Of a stretch of 64,000 nt of DNA, positions 4 to 8,334 are shown piece after piece. Origin of the DNA: Collinsella aerofaciens. GTDB lineage: Bacteria > Actinomycetota > Coriobacteriia > Coriobacteriales > Coriobacteriaceae. The notes under the pieces are model-generated. The model worked only from the letters and a program-made list of their open reading frames with translations, had not been told where the DNA came from and ran no database searches. A program made the translations under genes and the position numbers. Position 1 is the stretch's first letter, and each line of letters starts with the position of its first letter. The DNA lies in NCBI RefSeq assembly GCF_028206795.1, contig NZ_JAQLFJ010000008.1, forward strand, positions 2,619 to 66,618. The letters are read 5' to 3'.

Positions 4-1065
4 ATGAAGGAGACCGAGAAGATCGAGATCATGCACTTCGACCAGGAGGGCTACCTCGAGGACGGCAGGAACGTCTACGAGGCCGGCAAGAAGATGACCG
101 CCCTGGCCGACCGCGTGCACGAGGAGGGCTACGACGCCGTCTTCCTGATGGGCGTCGGCGGCACCTGGGACGAGTTCATGCAGCTCGAGTACCTCATGAA
201 CAAGTTCGGCGACCGCGACCTCGAGGTCTACCTGATCCACGCCGCCGAGTGGAACGTCATGGGCCACAAGCGCATGACCGACAGGTCCGTCGTGCTGACC
301 GCCTCCGAGTCCGGCACCACCCCCGAGGTGCTCGAGGCCGTCGGCAAGATGAGGGAGATGGGCGTGCGCGTCTTCGCCATGACCAACCCCGAGGGCAAGA
401 TCGGCCAGGCCGTGGGCGCCGAGAACTGCGTCATGATGGCCTCCGACCACGGCGCCGGCGGCTGCGAGAAGGGCTACTACCTCGCCGACTGCTTCGGCCT
501 GCGCCTGCTCAACCGCCGCGGCTGCTTCCCCAAGTTCGACCTGTTCATCGAGCAGACGAAGGACGTCTGGAAGGACATGCTCGACATCCGCAAGCGCTTC
601 GAGCCGCGCGCCGAGGAGCTCGCCAGGAAGTACGCGCTGGCCGACTACACCATGTTCATCGGCTCGGGCGCGCTGTGGGGCGAGACCATCCTGTACTCCA
701 TGTGCCTGCTCGAGGAGATGCAGTGGAAGCGCATCCGCCACATCACCTCGCACGACTTCTTCCACGGCACGCTCGAGCTGCTCGAGCCCGGCGTCCCGGT
801 GTTCCTGTTCATGGGAGAGGACGAGTGCCGCGCCCTCGACGAGCGCGTCCGCGCCTTCCTCACCAGCGGCGTGACCGGCGACGAGGACTACGTCATCATC
901 GACACCGCCGAGTACGCGATCCCGGGCCTGGACGACGACTTCCGCGTCATCGTGTCGCCGTGGATCCTGTCCGTGCTGACCACCGACCGCCTCGCGCGCA
1001 ACTACGAGCTGGTCACCAAGCACAACCTCAAGTACCGCCGCTACTACCACCAGTTCGACTACTAA
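4..1065 (+). CDS. SIS-domain sugar-amine deglycase (FrlB/GfrE/GfrF/FraB-like), copy 1
   Basis: This 353-residue protein has two SIS (sugar isomerase) folds. Its C-terminal half matches the fructosamine-6-phosphate deglycase family: E238 and H254 are 16 residues apart in the block EMQWKR..HDFFHGTLELLEPG, which is the spacing of the catalytic Glu/His pair in FraB, and the end HNLKYRRYYHQFDY resembles the FrlB C-terminus. Such enzymes split a phosphorylated Amadori product into a hexose 6-phosphate and the free amine. The gene heads the mannose-family PTS genes, which suits a PTS-phosphorylated substrate. Codons are almost all C/G-ending and include AGG, unlike the PTS genes beside it. It is 99.7% identical to the gene at 5154 (three base changes, one residue, V324A). 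The ribosome site lies at the window edge and is mostly cut off. The SIS family is certain; the exact substrate is inferred. Confidence 0.85.
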   Translation: MKETEKIEIMHFDQEGYLEDGRNVYEAGKKMTALADRVHEEGYDAVFLMGVGGTWDEFMQLEYLMNKFGDRDLEVYLIHAAEWNVMGHKRMTDRSVVLTASESGTTPEVLEAVGKMREMGVRVFAMTNPEGKIGQAVGAENCVMMASDHGAGGCEKGYYLADCFGLRLLNRRGCFPKFDLFIEQTKDVWKDMLDIRKRFEPRAEELARKYALADYTMFIGSGALWGETILYSMCLLEEMQWKRIRHITSHDFFHGTLELLEPGVPVFLFMGEDECRALDERVRAFLTSGVTGDEDYVIIDTAEYAIPGLDDDFRVIVSPWILSVLTTDRLARNYELVTKHNLKYRRYYHQFDY

Positions 1066-1086
1066 TTTCATTTGGGGGAAACCGCA

Positions 1087-1506
1087 ATGAGGCAATACAT
1101 CTTCGCCAGCCACGCGCATTTTGCGACCGGCATCAAGGAGAGTACCGAGCTGCTCTCGGGCGCGCGCGATAACGTCCACGACCTGTCGATGTTTGTCGAC
1201 GGCCGCACCGATGTCGCCGAGGAGGCCGCCAAGCTCCTGGCGACCTTCGACCCCGCCGACGACGTAATCGTGTGCACCGACCTGTTTGGCGGCAGCGTCA
1301 ACAACGAGTTCACCAAGATCGTCCAGACGCGCCCCAACACCTACCTGGTTGCCAACATGAATCTGCCGCTGCTGATCCAGCTGCTCTTTTCGGACCAGGA
1401 GGCTCCCGCCGATCAGGTTATCCGCGAGATCCTCGCGGCTGACGACACGCGCGTCAAGTTTGTCAACGACCTGCTGACCGATGCGGATGACGAGGAAGAG
1501 TTCTAG
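1087..1506 (+). CDS. PTS system mannose-family EIIA component
   Basis: This 139-residue protein is the length of a single EIIA-man domain. His9, in the N-terminal stretch ASHAHFATGI, aligns with the phosphorylated His10 of E. coli ManX. It should take phosphate from HPr and pass it to the IIB protein encoded next, in the cytoplasm. The ATG at 1087 follows a GGGGGAA ribosome site. An in-frame TTG at 1072 would lengthen the protein but lies inside that site. The gene starts 21 bases after the deglycase stop, so the two are probably cotranscribed. The family is clear; the sugar is inferred from the neighbours. Confidence 0.93.
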   Translation: MRQYIFASHAHFATGIKESTELLSGARDNVHDLSMFVDGRTDVAEEAAKLLATFDPADDVIVCTDLFGGSVNNEFTKIVQTRPNTYLVANMNLPLLIQLLFSDQEAPADQVIREILAADDTRVKFVNDLLTDADDEEEF

Positions 1507-1563
1507 TCACCGCCTGCTATTAATGGGGCCGGGTTTCCGGCATGAGACCTTTGGGGGTCAATC

Positions 1564-2046
1564 ATGATTCAACTGCTTCGCGTCGACCATCGTCTGCTTC
1601 ATGGCCAGGTGGCCGTCTCTTGGGTCCAGGGCTTGGGTTCTGACTGCATCTTCTGCGTTGGCGACAAGGTTGCCAACGATCCCGTCTGGAAGACTACGCT
1701 CAAGATGGGAAAGCCGGCCAACGTCAAGCTCGTCATCAAGGACATGGAGCACGCCATCGAGGCCATCAACTCCGGTGTTACCGATAAGTACAAGATGATC
1801 ATCTGCGTCGCCAGCATCGCCGAGGCCAAGCAGCTTGTCGACGGCTGCCCGCAGATCACCTCCATCAACCTGGGCAACACCAAGTCCAAGGACGAGCAGC
1901 GTCCCGATGCCCGTAAGATCTCCCGCCAGATCTTTGTGACTGCTGCCGAGGAAGAGGACATTCGTGAGCTCGTCGGCCGCGGTGTCGAGGTCGAGATTCG
2001 CGCTCTGGCCGACGACCCCAAGGTCGATGCCCTAAGCGCCCTCTAA
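1564..2046 (+). CDS. PTS system mannose-family EIIB component
   Basis: This 160-residue protein begins with RVDHRLLHGQV, the phosphohistidine motif of mannose/fructose/sorbose-family IIB proteins (active His13). It receives phosphate from EIIA and phosphorylates the sugar as it enters through IIC/IID. Its length is that of a free-standing IIB domain. The gene lies 57 bases after EIIA with GGGGG upstream of the ATG. A GC-rich hairpin and a new promoter separate it from the membrane components, so the soluble and membrane subunits may not be made at the same level. Confidence 0.94.
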   Translation: MIQLLRVDHRLLHGQVAVSWVQGLGSDCIFCVGDKVANDPVWKTTLKMGKPANVKLVIKDMEHAIEAINSGVTDKYKMIICVASIAEAKQLVDGCPQITSINLGNTKSKDEQRPDARKISRQIFVTAAEEEDIRELVGRGVEVEIRALADDPKVDALSAL

Positions 2047-2057
2047 TTGAGAACCAC

Positions 2058-2080
2058 GGGCGGCGCGCACGGCGCCGCCC
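2058..2080 (+). terminator. GC-rich hairpin after EIIB, possible partial terminator
   Basis: GGGCGGCGC and GCGCCGCCC form a 9-bp perfect stem 12 bases after the EIIB stop. Only CTATT follows rather than a long T run, so termination may be weak. It would separate the SIS-IIA-IIB transcript from IIC-IID, or hold the 3' end of the first message. Confidence 0.5.
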
Positions 2081-2160
2081 CTATTCGTGGGCGTACCGGA
2101 TAAACGCTTTACCCGTTACCCCCATCTACCGTTCACCGGGAGTACACGCCCGTTGAGCGA

Positions 2161-2205
2161 TTGGTATTAAATAGTTTTCTCATGACTATATAATTGGTAT
2201 CAAAT
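2161..2205 (+). promoter_or_regulatory. Promoter with paired TTGGTAT operator-like sites ahead of PTS IIC
   Basis: A consensus -10 TATAAT lies at 2189-2194. TTGGTATTAAATA starts at 2161 over the -35 side and TTGGTATCAAAT starts at 2194 just after the -10. The same arrangement, with the same words and 35 rather than 33 bases apart, precedes the second deglycase at 5061. Two copies bracketing a -10 box look like regulator sites, perhaps for a GntR-type protein. No regulator is encoded in the immediate region, so the binding protein is unknown. A leader of about 140 bases follows before the IIC ATG. Confidence 0.65.
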
Positions 2206-2340
2206 CATTTGCACCGGTTTAGGTGTTAACAGCACACCGGTACAAGCTGGATCTGTCTAGGCGATTGTCGGCATGGAAAAGGGCGCGCTGACAAGTCGGG
2301 AATCGCCGCGCGGATCCAAGAGGGATCAAAGGGAGGAACA

Positions 2341-3114
2341 ATGCTTGTTCAAGCGATCCTCATCGGACTTATCGCTGCCTTCGGTAAGCTCGATTATCAG
2401 CTCGGTACGCTCTATGCGTTCCGCCCGATCGTTCTGTGCCCGCTCGTCGGCATAGTCCTCGGGGACCTGCAGTCCGGCCTCGCCATCGGTGCGAGCCTCG
2501 AGCTGCTCTTCATGGGTTCAATCTCCATCGGCGCTTACGTGCCGCCCGATGAGTGTATTGGCGGTGTGCTCGCCTGCGCCTTCGCTATTCAGCTGGGTCA
2601 GAGCACCGAGGCCGCTATCGCGCTCGCGATGCCCATCGCCACTCTGTGCCTGGCCATTAAGAACGTCGTCAACGCCGGTATGCCCCTTCTGGTCGACCGT
2701 GCCGACGTCTTTGCCAGCAAGGGTAACCTCAAGGGTATCTACGCTATGCACTGGATTATCGGTCTCGTGATTGTCGTCCTGGCCTTTATCCTGTGCTCGG
2801 TCTCCTTCTATCTGGGTGCCGACGCCGTTCAGGGCCTGCTCGACTTCATCCCGACGTTCGTCCTCGATGGCTTTGGCGTCGCAGCCAACATCCTGCCTGC
2901 CATGGGCTTCGCCATGCTCGGCCGTCTGGTGCTTACCAAGCAGCTCGTGCCGTTCTACTTCCTGGGCTTCCTGCTGTGCTCCTATGCCAACGTGCCCGTC
3001 CTCGGCGTCGCCCTGATCGCAATCATCATCGGCATCGACAAGTACGACCTGCTGGGCCTTGGTGGCGCCCAGTCCCAGCTTTCTGTGGAAGGGGATGAGG
3101 ACGATGACTTCTAA
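2341..3114 (+). CDS. PTS system mannose-family EIIC component
   Basis: This is a 257-residue hydrophobic protein with many membrane segments and the typical N-terminal run of mannose-family IIC, including LEELF-type text SLELLFMGSISIGAYVPPDE. With IID it forms the membrane channel that binds the sugar. The ATG follows a strong GGGAGGA site at 2331. Its acidic tail EGDEDDDF overlaps the start of IID. It is the first gene behind the TTGGTAT promoter. Confidence 0.94.
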   Translation: MLVQAILIGLIAAFGKLDYQLGTLYAFRPIVLCPLVGIVLGDLQSGLAIGASLELLFMGSISIGAYVPPDECIGGVLACAFAIQLGQSTEAAIALAMPIATLCLAIKNVVNAGMPLLVDRADVFASKGNLKGIYAMHWIIGLVIVVLAFILCSVSFYLGADAVQGLLDFIPTFVLDGFGVAANILPAMGFAMLGRLVLTKQLVPFYFLGFLLCSYANVPVLGVALIAIIIGIDKYDLLGLGGAQSQLSVEGDEDDDF

Positions 3115-3928
3115 TTCCGAGAACCAGATTACTCGCTCCGACCTCATTAAGAGCGCCGTGAACACCGGCGCCCTGGGCATGGAATTCTCCTGGACCTACT
3201 ACAAGCAGATGAACATTGCCTTCTGCCTGATGGTCGCCAACATGCTCAAGAAGATCTATGCCGGCCGTCCCGATGATTACGCCGAGGCCTTGCACCGTCA
3301 CAGCGCATTCTTCAACATCACCCCGCAGCTCGCTCCCTTCGTGGGTGGCATCGCGATGGCCATGGAAGAAAAGGTCGCTCGTGGCGAGGTTGAGCCCGAG
3401 AGCGTCAACGACATCAAGGCCGCCCTCATGGGTCCGCTTTCCGGCCTGGGTGACTCCTTCTTCCTGTCCACCCTGCGCGTCGTCGCCGCTGCCGTGGGCA
3501 TCAGCCTGTGCCAGGCCGGCAACGTCTTTGGCCCCATCGCCTTCCTGCTCGTCTACAACATCCCGGCGTTCCTGATTCGTATCTTTGGCGCTATCAAGGG
3601 TTATGAGCTAGGCATTGGCTTCCTCGACGAGGCTCAGAAGACCGGCCTGATGCAAAAGATCATGGCCTGCGTCGGCATTGTCGGCGTTATGGTCGTCGGC
3701 GCCATGAGCAAGGACATGTTCTGGGCTTCGTTGCCCATCGCCATCGGTCAGGGCGACTCCGCCCAGACTCTCCAGGACATCCTGGACGGCATCATGCCCG
3801 GTATGCTCGGTATGGCCGCCTTCTGGCTCTACTACTGGCTGCTCTCCAAGAAGATCAACCCGATGGTCCTGATCCTCTGCACCATGGTCGTGGGCATCAT
3901 CGGCGCTTACTTTGGCGTGCTTGCCTAA
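3104..3928 (+). CDS. PTS system mannose-family EIID component
   Basis: This 274-residue protein matches the EIID (ManZ-like) family: a long soluble N-terminal part with GALGMEFSWTYYKQMN and the conserved phrase LMGPLSGLGDSFF, then a hydrophobic C-terminal part. It partners IIC in the membrane. The chosen ATG at 3104 lies inside the last codons of IIC, an 11-base overlap that suggests translational coupling, and has GAGG just upstream. An ATG at 3095 in the same frame is an alternative. Confidence 0.94.
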   Translation: MTSNSENQITRSDLIKSAVNTGALGMEFSWTYYKQMNIAFCLMVANMLKKIYAGRPDDYAEALHRHSAFFNITPQLAPFVGGIAMAMEEKVARGEVEPESVNDIKAALMGPLSGLGDSFFLSTLRVVAAAVGISLCQAGNVFGPIAFLLVYNIPAFLIRIFGAIKGYELGIGFLDEAQKTGLMQKIMACVGIVGVMVVGAMSKDMFWASLPIAIGQGDSAQTLQDILDGIMPGMLGMAAFWLYYWLLSKKINPMVLILCTMVVGIIGAYFGVLA

Positions 3929-3976
3929 TATGTTCGAATCGCGCTTCCATCGCGTCTAACGGTTGCGTCGATCTTT

Positions 3977-4014
3977 GGGGGGCTTGTCGCATCTGCGGCG
4001 GCCCCCTGTTTTTT
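3977..4014 (+). terminator. Terminator-like hairpin after EIID
   Basis: GGGGGC (3978-3983) pairs with GCCCCC (4001-4006), with further pairing in the loop, and TGTTTTTT follows. It lies between IID and the epimerase gene. Some read-through is likely because no clear promoter is seen before 4041. Confidence 0.7.
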
Positions 4015-4040
4015 AAAACTCCGTACGAAAGGGGAGGGCT

Positions 4041-4886
4041 ATGGTCGTACCCGAGCTTTCGCTCATGAACATCAACCATCGTTACTACAGCATCGAGACG
4101 TTTTTTAAGGCTGCAGGTGAGGCCGGCTATCGCAATATCGAGCTGTGGACCGGCTCGATGCACCTGTATGTGGATTGCCATGAGCACGATTCGGTGGATA
4201 AGATTCGCGATCTTGCCGCCCAATACGGTATCAAGATCGTGTGCGTGTGCCCCGAGCAGAACAACCCCAAGCCGTGGAACGTCGCGGTGCGCGGTGAGGC
4301 GGGCCAAAAACGCATCCTCTCGTACTTTAAGAATGTGATCGACGTTGCCGTTGAGTTGGGCGTGCCGCAGATTCTGGTGACGAGTGGTTGGGCCTATCTG
4401 GACGAGCCGGCTGAGGACGCCTGGGCCCGCAGCGTTGCCATGCTGCGCTCGGTGTGCGACTACGCCGATACGCGCGGTATTCGCGTCGCGCTCGAGGCCC
4501 TGCAGCCATCGGAGTCCGTGTTGGTCAACACCGCACAGGATGTCGCGCGCATCCTCGAGGCGGTCGATCGTCCCAACCTGAAGGCCTGTATCGACTTTGG
4601 CGCCATGGAAGTTGCCGGCGACACGATCGACGGCTACTTTGAGGTTTTGGGCGACAAGATCGTTCACACCCACTTTGTAGATGTGGGCGGCGGCACGACG
4701 CATCTTGCCTGGGGCGACGGCGAGCGTGATATGCGTGCCGACCTCGAGGCACTCATGCGCCACGGCTATACGGGCTATGTCTCGGCCGAGACGTGTGATG
4801 GCCGCTACTATCAGGATCCGTCCAAGGCGACGACTCAGGTTATCGAGATGTATCGCCGTGTGACAGCGGAGATGGAAGCCGAATAA
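4041..4886 (+). CDS. FrlC-like sugar (fructoselysine 3-)epimerase, TIM-barrel isomerase family
   Basis: This 281-residue protein belongs to the xylose-isomerase-like TIM-barrel (AP endonuclease 2) family. Resemblance to E. coli FrlC is visible in GYRNIELWTGSMH, the ALEALQPSESVLVNTA strand, CIDFGAM, DGYFEVLGDKIVHTHFVD and GDGERDMRADLEAL. Glu and His residues at strand ends (E in LEAL, D in CIDFG, H in HTHF, E in SAETCD) fit the metal and catalytic site. FrlC interconverts fructoselysine and psicoselysine. Here it sits between the PTS genes and the second deglycase, which supports an Amadori-product pathway. A tagatose-3-epimerase-like activity on another ketose is the main alternative. Confidence 0.8.
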   Translation: MVVPELSLMNINHRYYSIETFFKAAGEAGYRNIELWTGSMHLYVDCHEHDSVDKIRDLAAQYGIKIVCVCPEQNNPKPWNVAVRGEAGQKRILSYFKNVIDVAVELGVPQILVTSGWAYLDEPAEDAWARSVAMLRSVCDYADTRGIRVALEALQPSESVLVNTAQDVARILEAVDRPNLKACIDFGAMEVAGDTIDGYFEVLGDKIVHTHFVDVGGGTTHLAWGDGERDMRADLEALMRHGYTGYVSAETCDGRYYQDPSKATTQVIEMYRRVTAEMEAE

Positions 4887-4895
4887 CTAAACTGC

Positions 4896-4941
4896 GCGGT
4901 TGCGCCGGAAACGCTTGGGCGGGTCTGGCGCAACGCTTTTA
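4896..4941 (+). terminator. Terminator hairpin after the epimerase gene
   Basis: GTTGCGCC (4899-4906) pairs with GGCGCAAC (4927-4934), followed by GCTTTTAT. It closes the IIC-IID-epimerase transcript before the promoter of the second deglycase. Confidence 0.6.
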
Positions 4942-5060
4942 TAGCTGGCGAGTTGTGGGGAACCCGTTGGCAGTAGCGCTCGAAATAGACAACTATTGGC
5001 GTTGTAATACCACTCGGGCGAGGAAACCGACCGTTCGCCGCAAATCTCCGTGAGTTTGGA

Positions 5061-5104
5061 TTGGTATTAAATAACAAGCAATCGTATGGCTATAATTGGT
5101 ATCA
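5061..5104 (+). promoter_or_regulatory. Promoter with paired TTGGTAT sites ahead of deglycase copy 2
   Basis: TATAAT lies at 5091-5096. TTGGTATTAAATAAC starts at 5061 and TTGGTATCA at 5096. The words match those at 2161 and 2194, while the sequence between differs. The second deglycase therefore appears to have its own promoter under the same control as IIC-IID. Confidence 0.65.
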
Positions 5105-5153
5105 GCAAGAAGCGCGATGTATAGAATTGCGCACATGTGATGGGAGGACACAC

Positions 5154-6215
5154 ATGAAGGAGACCGAGAAGATCGAGATCATGCACTTCGACCAGGAGGG
5201 CTACCTCGAGGACGGCAGGAACGTCTACGAGGCCGGCAAGAAGATGACCGCCCTGGCCGACCGCGTGCACGAGGAGGGCTACGACGCCGTCTTCCTGATG
5301 GGCGTCGGCGGCACCTGGGACGAGTTCATGCAGCTCGAGTACCTCATGAACAAGTTCGGCGACCGCGACCTCGAGGTCTACCTGATCCACGCCGCCGAGT
5401 GGAACGTCATGGGCCACAAGCGCATGACCGACAGGTCCGTCGTGCTGACCGCCTCCGAGTCCGGCACCACCCCCGAGGTGCTCGAGGCCGTCGGCAAGAT
5501 GAGGGAGATGGGCGTGCGCGTCTTCGCCATGACCAACCCCGAGGGCAAGATCGGCCAGGCCGTGGGCGCCGAGAACTGCGTCATGATGGCCTCCGACCAC
5601 GGCGCCGGCGGCTGCGAGAAGGGCTACTACCTCGCCGACTGCTTCGGCCTGCGCCTGCTCAACCGCCGCGGCTGCTTCCCCAAGTTCGACCTGTTCATCG
5701 AGCAGACGAAGGACGTCTGGAAGGACATGCTCGACATCCGCAAGCGCTTCGAGCCGCGCGCCGAGGAGCTCGCCAGGAAGTACGCGCTGGCCGACTACAC
5801 CATGTTCATCGGCTCGGGCGCGCTGTGGGGCGAGACCATCCTGTACTCCATGTGCCTGCTCGAGGAGATGCAGTGGAAGCGCATCCGCCACATCACCTCG
5901 CACGACTTCTTCCACGGCACGCTCGAGCTGCTCGAGCCCGGCGTCCCGGTGTTCCTGTTCATGGGCGAGGACGAGTGCCGCGCCCTCGACGAGCGCGTCC
6001 GCGCCTTCCTCACCAGCGGCGTGACCGGCGACGAGGACTACGTCATCATCGACACCGCCGAGTACGCGATCCCGGGCCTGGACGACGACTTCCGCGTCAT
6101 CGTGTCGCCCTGGATCCTGTCCGCGCTGACCACCGACCGCCTCGCGCGCAACTACGAGCTGGTCACCAAGCACAACCTCAAGTACCGCCGCTACTACCAC
6201 CAGTTCGACTACTAA
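5154..6215 (+). CDS. SIS-domain sugar-amine deglycase (FrlB/GfrE/GfrF/FraB-like), copy 2
   Basis: This 353-residue protein is the same as copy 1 except A324 for V324. It carries the E238/H254 deglycase signature and the RRYY C-terminus. The start is the ATG at 5154 behind GGGAGGA at 5142. Identity with copy 1 begins at the start codon and stops at the stop codon: the flanks GGA/CAC before and TTTC/GAGC after are unrelated. Only three base differences separate the copies, so duplication or gene conversion was recent. Codon use (almost all C/G-ending, AGG for Arg) differs from the PTS genes. Confidence 0.85.
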   Translation: MKETEKIEIMHFDQEGYLEDGRNVYEAGKKMTALADRVHEEGYDAVFLMGVGGTWDEFMQLEYLMNKFGDRDLEVYLIHAAEWNVMGHKRMTDRSVVLTASESGTTPEVLEAVGKMREMGVRVFAMTNPEGKIGQAVGAENCVMMASDHGAGGCEKGYYLADCFGLRLLNRRGCFPKFDLFIEQTKDVWKDMLDIRKRFEPRAEELARKYALADYTMFIGSGALWGETILYSMCLLEEMQWKRIRHITSHDFFHGTLELLEPGVPVFLFMGEDECRALDERVRAFLTSGVTGDEDYVIIDTAEYAIPGLDDDFRVIVSPWILSALTTDRLARNYELVTKHNLKYRRYYHQFDY

Positions 6216-6618: not shown

Positions 6619-8334
6619 ATGACGGCCACACCGTGGGGATTCCGGGATATATTGCCCGAGGAGGCTCAGGCGCGCGAGGAGATTGCGCTGACGGTGAAGG
6701 GCTGCTTCAGGGAGCATCATTACCTTCCGGTCGAAACGCCGCTGCTCGAGGACAAGGGTTCACTCGAGGAAGGCGGCCGCATCGCGGACACGCCGTTTAA
6801 GCTTTTTGACGATGATGGCCGTCTGCTGGTGGTCCGTCCCGACAACACATTGCCGATCGTGCGTCTGGTCTCGACCCGCATGCGTGCGGCCGACCTGCCC
6901 CTGCGCCTGCGCTATGAGGCGCCGGTGGTTCGCGAGTGCCAGCGCAATGCCGGCGGTTCGCGTCAGTTCACCCAGCTGGGCTTTGAGCTTATCGGTGCGG
7001 GCGATACCGCGGGCGATGTCGAGATTGTCTCGCTCGTGGCCGAGGCCGTGCGCGAGCTGGCGCTGCCCGATGCGCGCATTATCGCAGGTAGCGTGCGTCC
7101 GTTTAAGGAGCTGCTCGCGGCGTGCGAGGATCGCGAGCTGGCCGCCGAGGCCTTGCGCTGCGTGCACGCCAACGACTTTGTGGGCCTCGATGCCCGCGTG
7201 GCGGCAAGCGCCGAGTCCGATGCCGTCAAGGCCGCCATTAGCGAGCTGCCGCGCTTGCACGGCGGCGCCGAGGTACTCGACCGCGTCGATGTGCTTCTGG
7301 CGGCGGCGGGCATTGTCGCGCCGCTCACGCGCGAGCTGCGCGCCCTGGTCGAGGGCCTGGCTCCCGAGGACGCCCAGGTGCTGTCCTTCGATTTCTCCAT
7401 CATGAACTCTTTTGATTACTACACGGGCCTGGTTTTTAAGGCCTATGCCGGTGGCCTGCCCGATCCGGTGGGCTCGGGCGGTCGCTACGACTCCATCTTT
7501 ACCGGTGCGTTCGGCGACGGCATCGAGGTGCCGGCGGCGGGCTTTGCCTTTTCGCTCGAGCGTCTGGAAGCCGCGCGCACCTCGGCCGAGGACGCTGCTT
7601 CCGATGGTGACCATGCCGTGGGCCGTGGCGCCGAGGGTCCGCTGCGTATCGCCGTGCCCAAGGGCTCGCTCAAGGCCGATACGCTCGATGTGCTCGAGGC
7701 CGCGGGCTTGGACGTCTCTGAGCTGCGCGATCCCGGCCGTCACCTGATCGTGCGTGGTCGCGACACACGTGCCGGCGAGGGCACGGTCGGCGATATCGAA
7801 TTTGTCATCGTGCGTCCCAGCGACGCGCCCGCTTTTGTGGGCTGCGGCGGTGCCGACTGTGGCATCTGCGGCTGGGACTCGCTTATCGAGGCAGACCTCA
7901 ACCTGCTGCAGCTGGTCGATCTGGGCTACGGCCTGTGCACCTTTATCGAGGCGGAGCCCGCGTGGCGCGCCGGCCAGGCCGAGCGCAACTATGCCCGCCG
8001 TGGGTCGCTTCGCGTGGCCACCAAGTATCCGCGCATCGCGAGTGCCTGGTATGCCGAGCGCGGCGTGAACGCCGACATCGTCTCGCTGCACGGCAACATC
8101 GAGCTGGGCCCCATTGTCGGCATGACCGATCGCATCGTGGATATTACCGCCACGGGTGCCACGCTGCGTGACAACGACCTGGTCATCACCGGCCGCATCA
8201 TGGACTGCACGGCCCGCTTCTTTGTCAATCCGGGTGCTGCGCGCCTTGATCCGCGCGTACGCAATCTGGCAGATCGCCTGGCCGCGGCCGTTAAGGACAA
8301 GCATTTTGAGCCCGTCGCGGGCTCGGCACAATAG
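6619..8334 (+). CDS. hisZG: HisZ-HisG fusion: ATP phosphoribosyltransferase regulatory plus catalytic subunit
   Basis: This 571-residue protein catalyses the first step of histidine synthesis, ATP + PRPP to phosphoribosyl-ATP. Residues about 1-330 are a HisZ/histidyl-tRNA-synthetase-like domain (TPWGFRDILPEEA, RPDNTLPIVRL, RYEAPVVRE, FDYYTGLVFKAY, GSGGRYDSI). Residues about 345-560 are a short-form HisG (LRIAVPKGSLKADTLDVL, TKYPRIASAWYAERG, SLHGNIELGPIVGMTDRIVDI). The two are normally separate subunits of a hetero-octamer, so the fusion fixes their ratio. The stretch CGGADCGICGWDSL carries three Cys where HisG usually reads like GAADLGIVGKD. GAGGAGG precedes the ATG. It heads the his operon. 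Confidence 0.93.
   Translation: MTATPWGFRDILPEEAQAREEIALTVKGCFREHHYLPVETPLLEDKGSLEEGGRIADTPFKLFDDDGRLLVVRPDNTLPIVRLVSTRMRAADLPLRLRYEAPVVRECQRNAGGSRQFTQLGFELIGAGDTAGDVEIVSLVAEAVRELALPDARIIAGSVRPFKELLAACEDRELAAEALRCVHANDFVGLDARVAASAESDAVKAAISELPRLHGGAEVLDRVDVLLAAAGIVAPLTRELRALVEGLAPEDAQVLSFDFSIMNSFDYYTGLVFKAYAGGLPDPVGSGGRYDSIFTGAFGDGIEVPAAGFAFSLERLEAARTSAEDAASDGDHAVGRGAEGPLRIAVPKGSLKADTLDVLEAAGLDVSELRDPGRHLIVRGRDTRAGEGTVGDIEFVIVRPSDAPAFVGCGGADCGICGWDSLIEADLNLLQLVDLGYGLCTFIEAEPAWRAGQAERNYARRGSLRVATKYPRIASAWYAERGVNADIVSLHGNIELGPIVGMTDRIVDITATGATLRDNDLVITGRIMDCTARFFVNPGAARLDPRVRNLADRLAAAVKDKHFEPVAGSAQ

Follow-up and report, generated by a model that had tools for sequence, protein, structure and literature searches.

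The 64,000-nucleotide stretch of Collinsella aerofaciens DNA analyzed here (contig NZ_JAQLFJ010000008.1, positions 2,619 to 66,618; hereafter the window) carries two nearly identical genes for a putative deglycase on either side of a set of phosphotransferase system (PTS) genes, and the likeness of the two genes stops at their start and stop codons. This raises the question of how two genes can be kept alike over exactly their coding sequence (CDS) and nowhere else. The comparison with other Collinsella genomes presented below leads us to consider it very probable that the two genes are old paralogs, A and B, which have been homogenized by gene conversion restricted to the CDS, with crossover between them losing the PTS segment.

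Copy A (4..1065) and copy B (5154..6215), both on the forward strand, are 1062 bp long, and the three base differences that the first-pass annotation had reported between them were borne out by alignment. The mismatches are located at gene positions 813, 957, and 971, the ATG and TAA being common to both copies. At the protein level they amount to a single change, V324A, and the other two differences are silent. Against G001, a close relative, base 813 is shared by copy A and base 957 by copy B. The difference at position 971 strikes residue 324, one of the residues that separate the two enzyme subtypes described below, with valine in A and alanine in B. Past the stop codons, 25 of the next 100 bases are the same in both copies, in agreement with the earlier claim that similarity ends at the TAA and is followed by different 3' sequence. 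The additional claim of different ribosome-binding sites could be judged in relatives only. Because the window holds just three bases (GGA) 5' of copy A, the left edge of this copy was examined in the relatives G001 and G021, where the 60-bp stretches 5' of A and of B agree at 13 and 15 positions, respectively, and the identical run past the ATG is 0 bases.

The relatives were obtained from a search of 43 Collinsella genomes with the protein as query (E 1e-60), in which close relatives stood in for the window's own assembly. Matches were found in 17 genomes, of which 11 carry two copies at the locus (10 full-length and G018) and six carry a single copy. The 11 A/B pairs compared are those of the window and of the 10 full-length two-copy genomes, including G015 and G017. 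G018 was excluded from the pair counts because of N runs in its copies, the 11 pairs include neither the locus L005 (two copies with 0 differences) nor L014, which has an N run, and the nucleotide matrix does not cover G029 and G038, relatives at 51-52%. Genome groups were defined by gene comparison, without a species tree: the window clade comprises the window, G001, and G021, and the G002 group comprises G002, G006, G007, G024, G026, and G031. Records titled C. aerofaciens fall in both. Across the 10 two-copy genomes the identical run past the ATG or the stop codon is at most 1 base. The local A-B similarity of the 300-bp upstream flanks does not exceed the highest value from 100 shuffles in nine of the 10, G015 being slightly above it (22 vs 20), and the downstream flanks are under the shuffle maximum in six. 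The exceptions, G002, G006, G026, and G031, have an EIIA relative 3' of both copies, which we take to be the reason. In the window, the last 60 bp of the copy B leader (4887..5153, forward strand) resemble the B leader of the G002 group and not the A leader of G001 and G021.

The number of differences between A and B varies widely among the pairs, from 0 in G001 and G021 and 3 in the window to 29-85 in the G002 group, 122 in G015, and 219 in G017. Window-clade copies differ from G002-group copies at 104-130 bases. The number of synonymous substitutions per synonymous site (dS) is 0.009 between A and B of the window, 0.149 against G017 copy A, and 0.24 against either G026 copy. All eight pairs outside the window clade have distinct residues in the two copies, with V (copy A) and S (copy B) at 324 and with R (copy A) and A (copy B) at 332. 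Such comparisons indicate that A and B would be old paralogs and not a fresh duplication. A recent duplication of the bare open reading frame, inserted behind a second ribosome-binding site, would fit the identity that stops exactly at ATG and TAA and the unrelated leaders. However, the G002 group has the B position with a similar leader and with copies at the distance from the window's given above, and the distinct residues at 324 and 332 recur in all eight pairs outside the clade, which makes this origin very improbable. The lack of a flank match, which had been presented as strange for a duplication, is not so for old paralogs, whose flanks would have diverged or been replaced while the CDS alone stayed recombinable.

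Four genomes carry a second EIIA-EIIB-EIIC-EIID set 3' of copy B, with protein identities to G001 of 67% (G002), 42-43% (G006), 42-44% (G026), and 38-39% (G031). A and B probably once headed two tandem PTS operons for Amadori compounds, and we infer an origin by operon duplication. A duplicated operon of which only the deglycase was kept alike would explain why the flanks do not match. By eye, the leader of G015 copy B (L065) is similar to the leader of G017 copy A (L064), and there may thus also have been some reshuffling of leaders and gene copies.

The proposal that conversion is confined to the coding region is supported by the 11 pairs and by trees. Among the G002-group pairs, 109 sites differ between A and B in at least one genome. 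The end segments (the first 100 and the last 113 bases) hold 38 of these sites, of which 24 differ in all six pairs, against 0 of the 71 sites between. The p values of this end effect (Mann-Whitney 5e-9; silent sites 3e-4) are generous, because the sites are linked and the end zones (up to 100, from 950) were picked post hoc from the difference profile. Bases 1-32 are invariant in these pairs, and tracts can thus be traced past site 33 but not to the ATG. Concordant A-B runs exceeded those of 2000 of 2000 permutations in all six G002-group pairs; with silent sites alone, 0, 1, 29, 33, 54, and 187 of 2000 permutations reached the observed value. The same test is uninformative for the window at just three differences (121 of 2000). 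In the window clade, the two copies of a genome differ at 0-3 bases, against 104-130 to copies of the G002 group. In G031, no A-B difference occurs from 80 to 953, whereas its B interior is 15-17 bases from the A of the five other G002-group genomes, and the donor for this interior was most likely the A of G031 itself. Further tracts were seen in G009, whose gene at the B position has A-type bases at each of nine 5' sites and each of 12 sites from 967 to 996 and a B-type base at 1029 (its middle is unseen), and in L031, where a B-type leader precedes a gene with A-type bases at five of five 5' sites.

The trees of the gene segments conflict, as mosaic tracts would have it, although the 3'-end branch is weak. 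The interior tree places all G002-group copies, A and B alike, in a single clade (100/100) and those of the window clade in a second one (98/95); label changes number seven against a shuffled mean of 7.7. In the 3'-end tree, all eight B copies outside the window clade and the single copy of G003 stand on one side, and all A copies together with both window-clade copies on the other (79/95).

The distinct ends could also be kept by selection on the subtype residues (13-24, 323-343) and not by rare conversion there. Many of the end differences are amino acid changes, those at 324 and 332 are found again in G015 and G017, and comparable residue sets occur in single genes outside the genus. On the other hand, silent sites show the same end effect (p 3e-4, linked), the ends of the two copies agree in the window clade and for the most part in G009, and an end effect is predicted without selection by the model for the Salmonella tufA/tufB genes, in which conversion aborts at the gene ends (PMC5485169, in the part of that paper cited here). 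Such selection is a real possibility, though not the account of the ends that we would expect to prevail.

With respect to the direction of conversion, the window copies are 48 bases from G017 copy A and 213-215 from G017 copy B, and both copies of the window, G001, and G021 together are 48-55 bases from the former and 213-217 from the latter. Window-clade copies carry A-type residues at 332 and 343. Because of the nearness to G017 copy A and these two residues, it is most likely that A overwrote B in the window clade, over the whole gene, and there is evidence that A has a tendency to overwrite B. Alternatively, B may have been replaced by DNA from another strain's gene instead of by conversion within the chromosome. 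Bases 813 and 957 of the window are matched crosswise with G001, and identical pairs cannot separate the two processes. Yet the flanks are unmatched, so incoming DNA would likewise be limited to recombination in the CDS, and the B interior of G031 equals its own A and no other A compared. Replacement from another strain is therefore judged to be quite improbable.

Several observations weigh against CDS-restricted conversion from A to B as the general account, among them that the identical pairs of G001 and G021 show no mosaic, which leaves conversion and wholesale replacement indistinguishable there. The 22 sites that distinguish the A and B copies of the G002 group do not settle the direction in the window clade: copy A of the window has 11 A-type, nine B-type, and two other bases there, and copy B has 10, 10, and two, respectively. 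Evidence of conversion is slight or absent in G015 and G017 (37 and 692 of 2000 permutations, respectively, reach the observed value), and the copies of these genomes sit in other operon contexts. In G017 the two copies differ from each other at 219 bases against 48 from its A to the window, so that likeness is not greater within this genome. Over the whole gene, the A copies of the G002 group differ from each other (2-25) less than from their own B (29-85), and homogenization is partial. Five of the six G002-group B copies and the copy of G003 remain a subclade (96/93) in the interior tree, which is in keeping with partial conversion. Finally, the grouping in the 3'-end tree comes from an alignment of 117 columns and has 79/95 support, no fork reaching the starred threshold, and in a tree of both ends the B copies of G015 and G017 are not united with the other B copies.

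An assembly artefact, in which one gene was placed twice by the assembler, was also considered, as several draft assemblies break inside the deglycase gene. The contig with the PTS unit stops within this gene at both ends in G008, G009, G010, and G012, and in G012 stubs of 55 bases end precisely at gene positions 1 and 1062; the stub lengths would be assembly k-mers. These contig ends are what two nearly identical copies would cause, and they are expected if both copies are real. Moreover, the two copies are found at a spacing of 5149 bp in G001 (2.43-Mb contig) and 5148 bp in G021, and also on the single contig of G002 and on a 2.25-Mb contig of G024, and the window copies carry three differences. 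The long contigs of the relatives thus make the copying of one gene into the other during assembly, which had been named as a way to refute the duplication, scarcely credible. A candidate third deglycase in L005 was rejected, as the 77-bp stub before an N run reads as scaffold overlap. A mobile-DNA reading was likewise dropped, the plasmid search having yielded just one record, an 899,693-bp Collinsella replicon.

Of 22 further genomes of the family, eight match at 1e-80, with one match each. At five loci outside the genus (L016-L019 and L022; 21 kb examined), a single deglycase heads a single PTS operon. The deglycase pair is therefore a Collinsella feature, as far as sampled. The single copies have S324/A332 in L016, L017, and L022 and L324/R332 in L018 and L019, which may reflect two ancient enzyme subtypes across the broader group.

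If A and B recombine, direct repeats in this arrangement could also delete or amplify the unit between them, as had been predicted. Deletion is supported by G003 and G004, in which the upstream flank of A, one deglycase gene, and the downstream flank of B follow each other. In the alignment of G003 with G024, the left-hand block includes the gene, the right-hand block begins with the gene, and G003 lacks the PTS genes that separate the two in G024. G004 shows the same collapse relative to G001; its B flank is separated from the his cluster by about 5 kb of other genes, and its single gene is two bases off window copy A and three off copy B. A close EIIA-EIID copy was not found elsewhere in G003 or G004, which holds if the draft assemblies miss no contig. 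The best matches to the PTS segment are 95 bases at 81% for G004 and, for G003, an alignment at 69% to the FrlC-like gene next to the deglycase. The search with PTS DNA covered 12 of the 26 genus genomes that had no protein match. The deletions would have arisen by crossover. Amplification, in contrast, was not seen, as none of the 17 matching genomes among the 43 searched has more than two close copies, a third match in G015 being a 49% paralog.

CDS-restricted conversion between old paralogs, the preferred explanation, would proceed as follows. Homologous recombination between the direct repeats A and B, presumably dependent on RecA, keeps copying one into the other, and exchange would be possible solely in the still-alike coding sequence. 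Conversion tracts would be bounded by the start and stop codons because homology ends there, as in tufA/tufB. In the window clade a conversion, most likely from A to B, would have spanned the whole gene, and where recombination was resolved as a crossover, the PTS segment between the copies would have been lost.

The process is of a known kind. In the cited part of the Salmonella work, tufA/tufB conversion halts where coding-sequence homology halts (PMC5485169), and both systems consist of a near-identical pair of about 1.1-1.2 kb on one chromosome whose identity ends at the CDS boundaries. Unlike the tuf genes, as portrayed there, the deglycases encode a catabolic enzyme and are direct repeats 5-8 kb apart, so that a crossover can delete the intervening segment; their copies keep old residue differences in many genomes, and they are known here from sequence alone. 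Long-lasting concerted evolution in prokaryotes similarly leaves paralogs closer within than between species (PMC6053082), but here, compared with the cases in the part of that source considered, it involves a single genus and whole-gene homogenization in some genomes only. A limited literature search on gene conversion in Collinsella or of deglycases did not find a related description of the locus. New are the locus, the series of stages, the evidence of A over B, and the two single-copy derivatives.

The product of copy A, a 353-aa SIS-type protein, is likely a sugar-amine 6-phosphate deglycase of the GfrF/FrlB type, a predicted function to which the neighborhood contributes. It scores 61.6 bits against NCBIfam NF008481 (cut-off 430) and 19.4 against Pfam SIS (cut-off 25). 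A deglycase profile has its nearest solved structures in PDB entries 2a3n (E 5e-105), which we take to be GfrF (STM4540), and 8glr (1e-104), and it also matches 3eua, "fructose-aminoacid-6-phosphate deglycase" (8e-42). The structure model has a mean pLDDT (predicted local distance difference test) of 84, with values below 50 over residues 334-353, adjoining the subtype residues. The neighborhood is of the Gfr/Frl type, with a mannose-family PTS and an FrlC-like gene beside the deglycases. As the first-pass annotation had noted, the repeats flank the PTS genes: between the copies lie, all on the forward strand, EIIA of the mannose/fructose/sorbose family (1096..1506), EIIB (1564..2046), EIIC (2341..3114), EIID (3104..3928), and a fructoselysine 3-epimerase-like TIM barrel gene (4041..4886; FrlC-like, under the curated cut-off). 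The PTS and epimerase genes are likely of the Amadori-compound type, that is, the fructoselysine/glucoselysine type. Fructoselysine use by Collinsella intestinalis was reportedly described by Wolf and others in 2019.

The right edge of the locus is formed by the first gene of the his cluster (6619..8334, forward strand), which encodes a 571-aa protein with a histidyl-tRNA-synthetase-like domain (residues 7-316) and a HisG domain (399-555). Its N-terminal part is presumably HisZ, which would make the gene a HisZ-HisG-like fusion heading the cluster. In G001, his genes also lie downstream of copy B, and a LacI-family gene, a gene for a 166-aa protein without Pfam match, and two GntR-UTRA regulators lie upstream of copy A. 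A blastn comparison of the window with itself gave the 1062-bp pair as the longest repeat by far. The next is a direct repeat of 101 bp at 86% (13874-13973/37396-37496), and shorter ones occur at 25010-25097/25206-25294 (83% over 89 bp) and 34721-34774/59104-59157 (93% over 54 bp). A tandem EIIC-EIID duplication is present in G024, G002, G006, and G031 (L066, L070, L069, and L071), 2.1-6.7 kb past the ATG of copy A, and was not seen in the window, G007, or G026. The duplicates are 97.8-99.6% identical over about 1.0-1.2 kb (the end of EIIC and EIID) and 79-88% identical at the start of EIIC, the same patchy pattern as in the deglycases, which suggests conversion there too.

The Salmonella gfrABCDEF operon for a fructoselysine/glucoselysine PTS likewise combines EIIA, EIIB, EIIC, and EIID with two deglycases, GfrE and GfrF, which the cited part of its description assigns different substrates within one operon (PMC12675984). 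The Collinsella deglycases, in contrast, have a DNA identity of 79-100% and lie on either side of the PTS genes, and an FrlC-like epimerase is added. The stages found at the locus make up an unusually complete natural series that starts with unconverted paralogs, passes through partial mosaics to full identity, and ends with single-copy derivatives, and this series sits in a human gut commensal, beyond the usual tuf and rRNA models. It makes the end effects of conversion measurable from sequence data. It also carries a warning, since draft assemblies break in the deglycase gene, and its presence, copy number, and operon content are easily misread. A further reading, which we consider unlikely, is that the twin deglycases form a recombination-driven switch of catabolic range. 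Subtypes with 324 V/332 R and 324 S/332 A would each head a PTS operon, biased conversion from A to B would merge them, the sparing of the ends would keep them apart, and crossover would drop the transporter. If this reading is true, strains would differ in the Amadori compounds that they consume.

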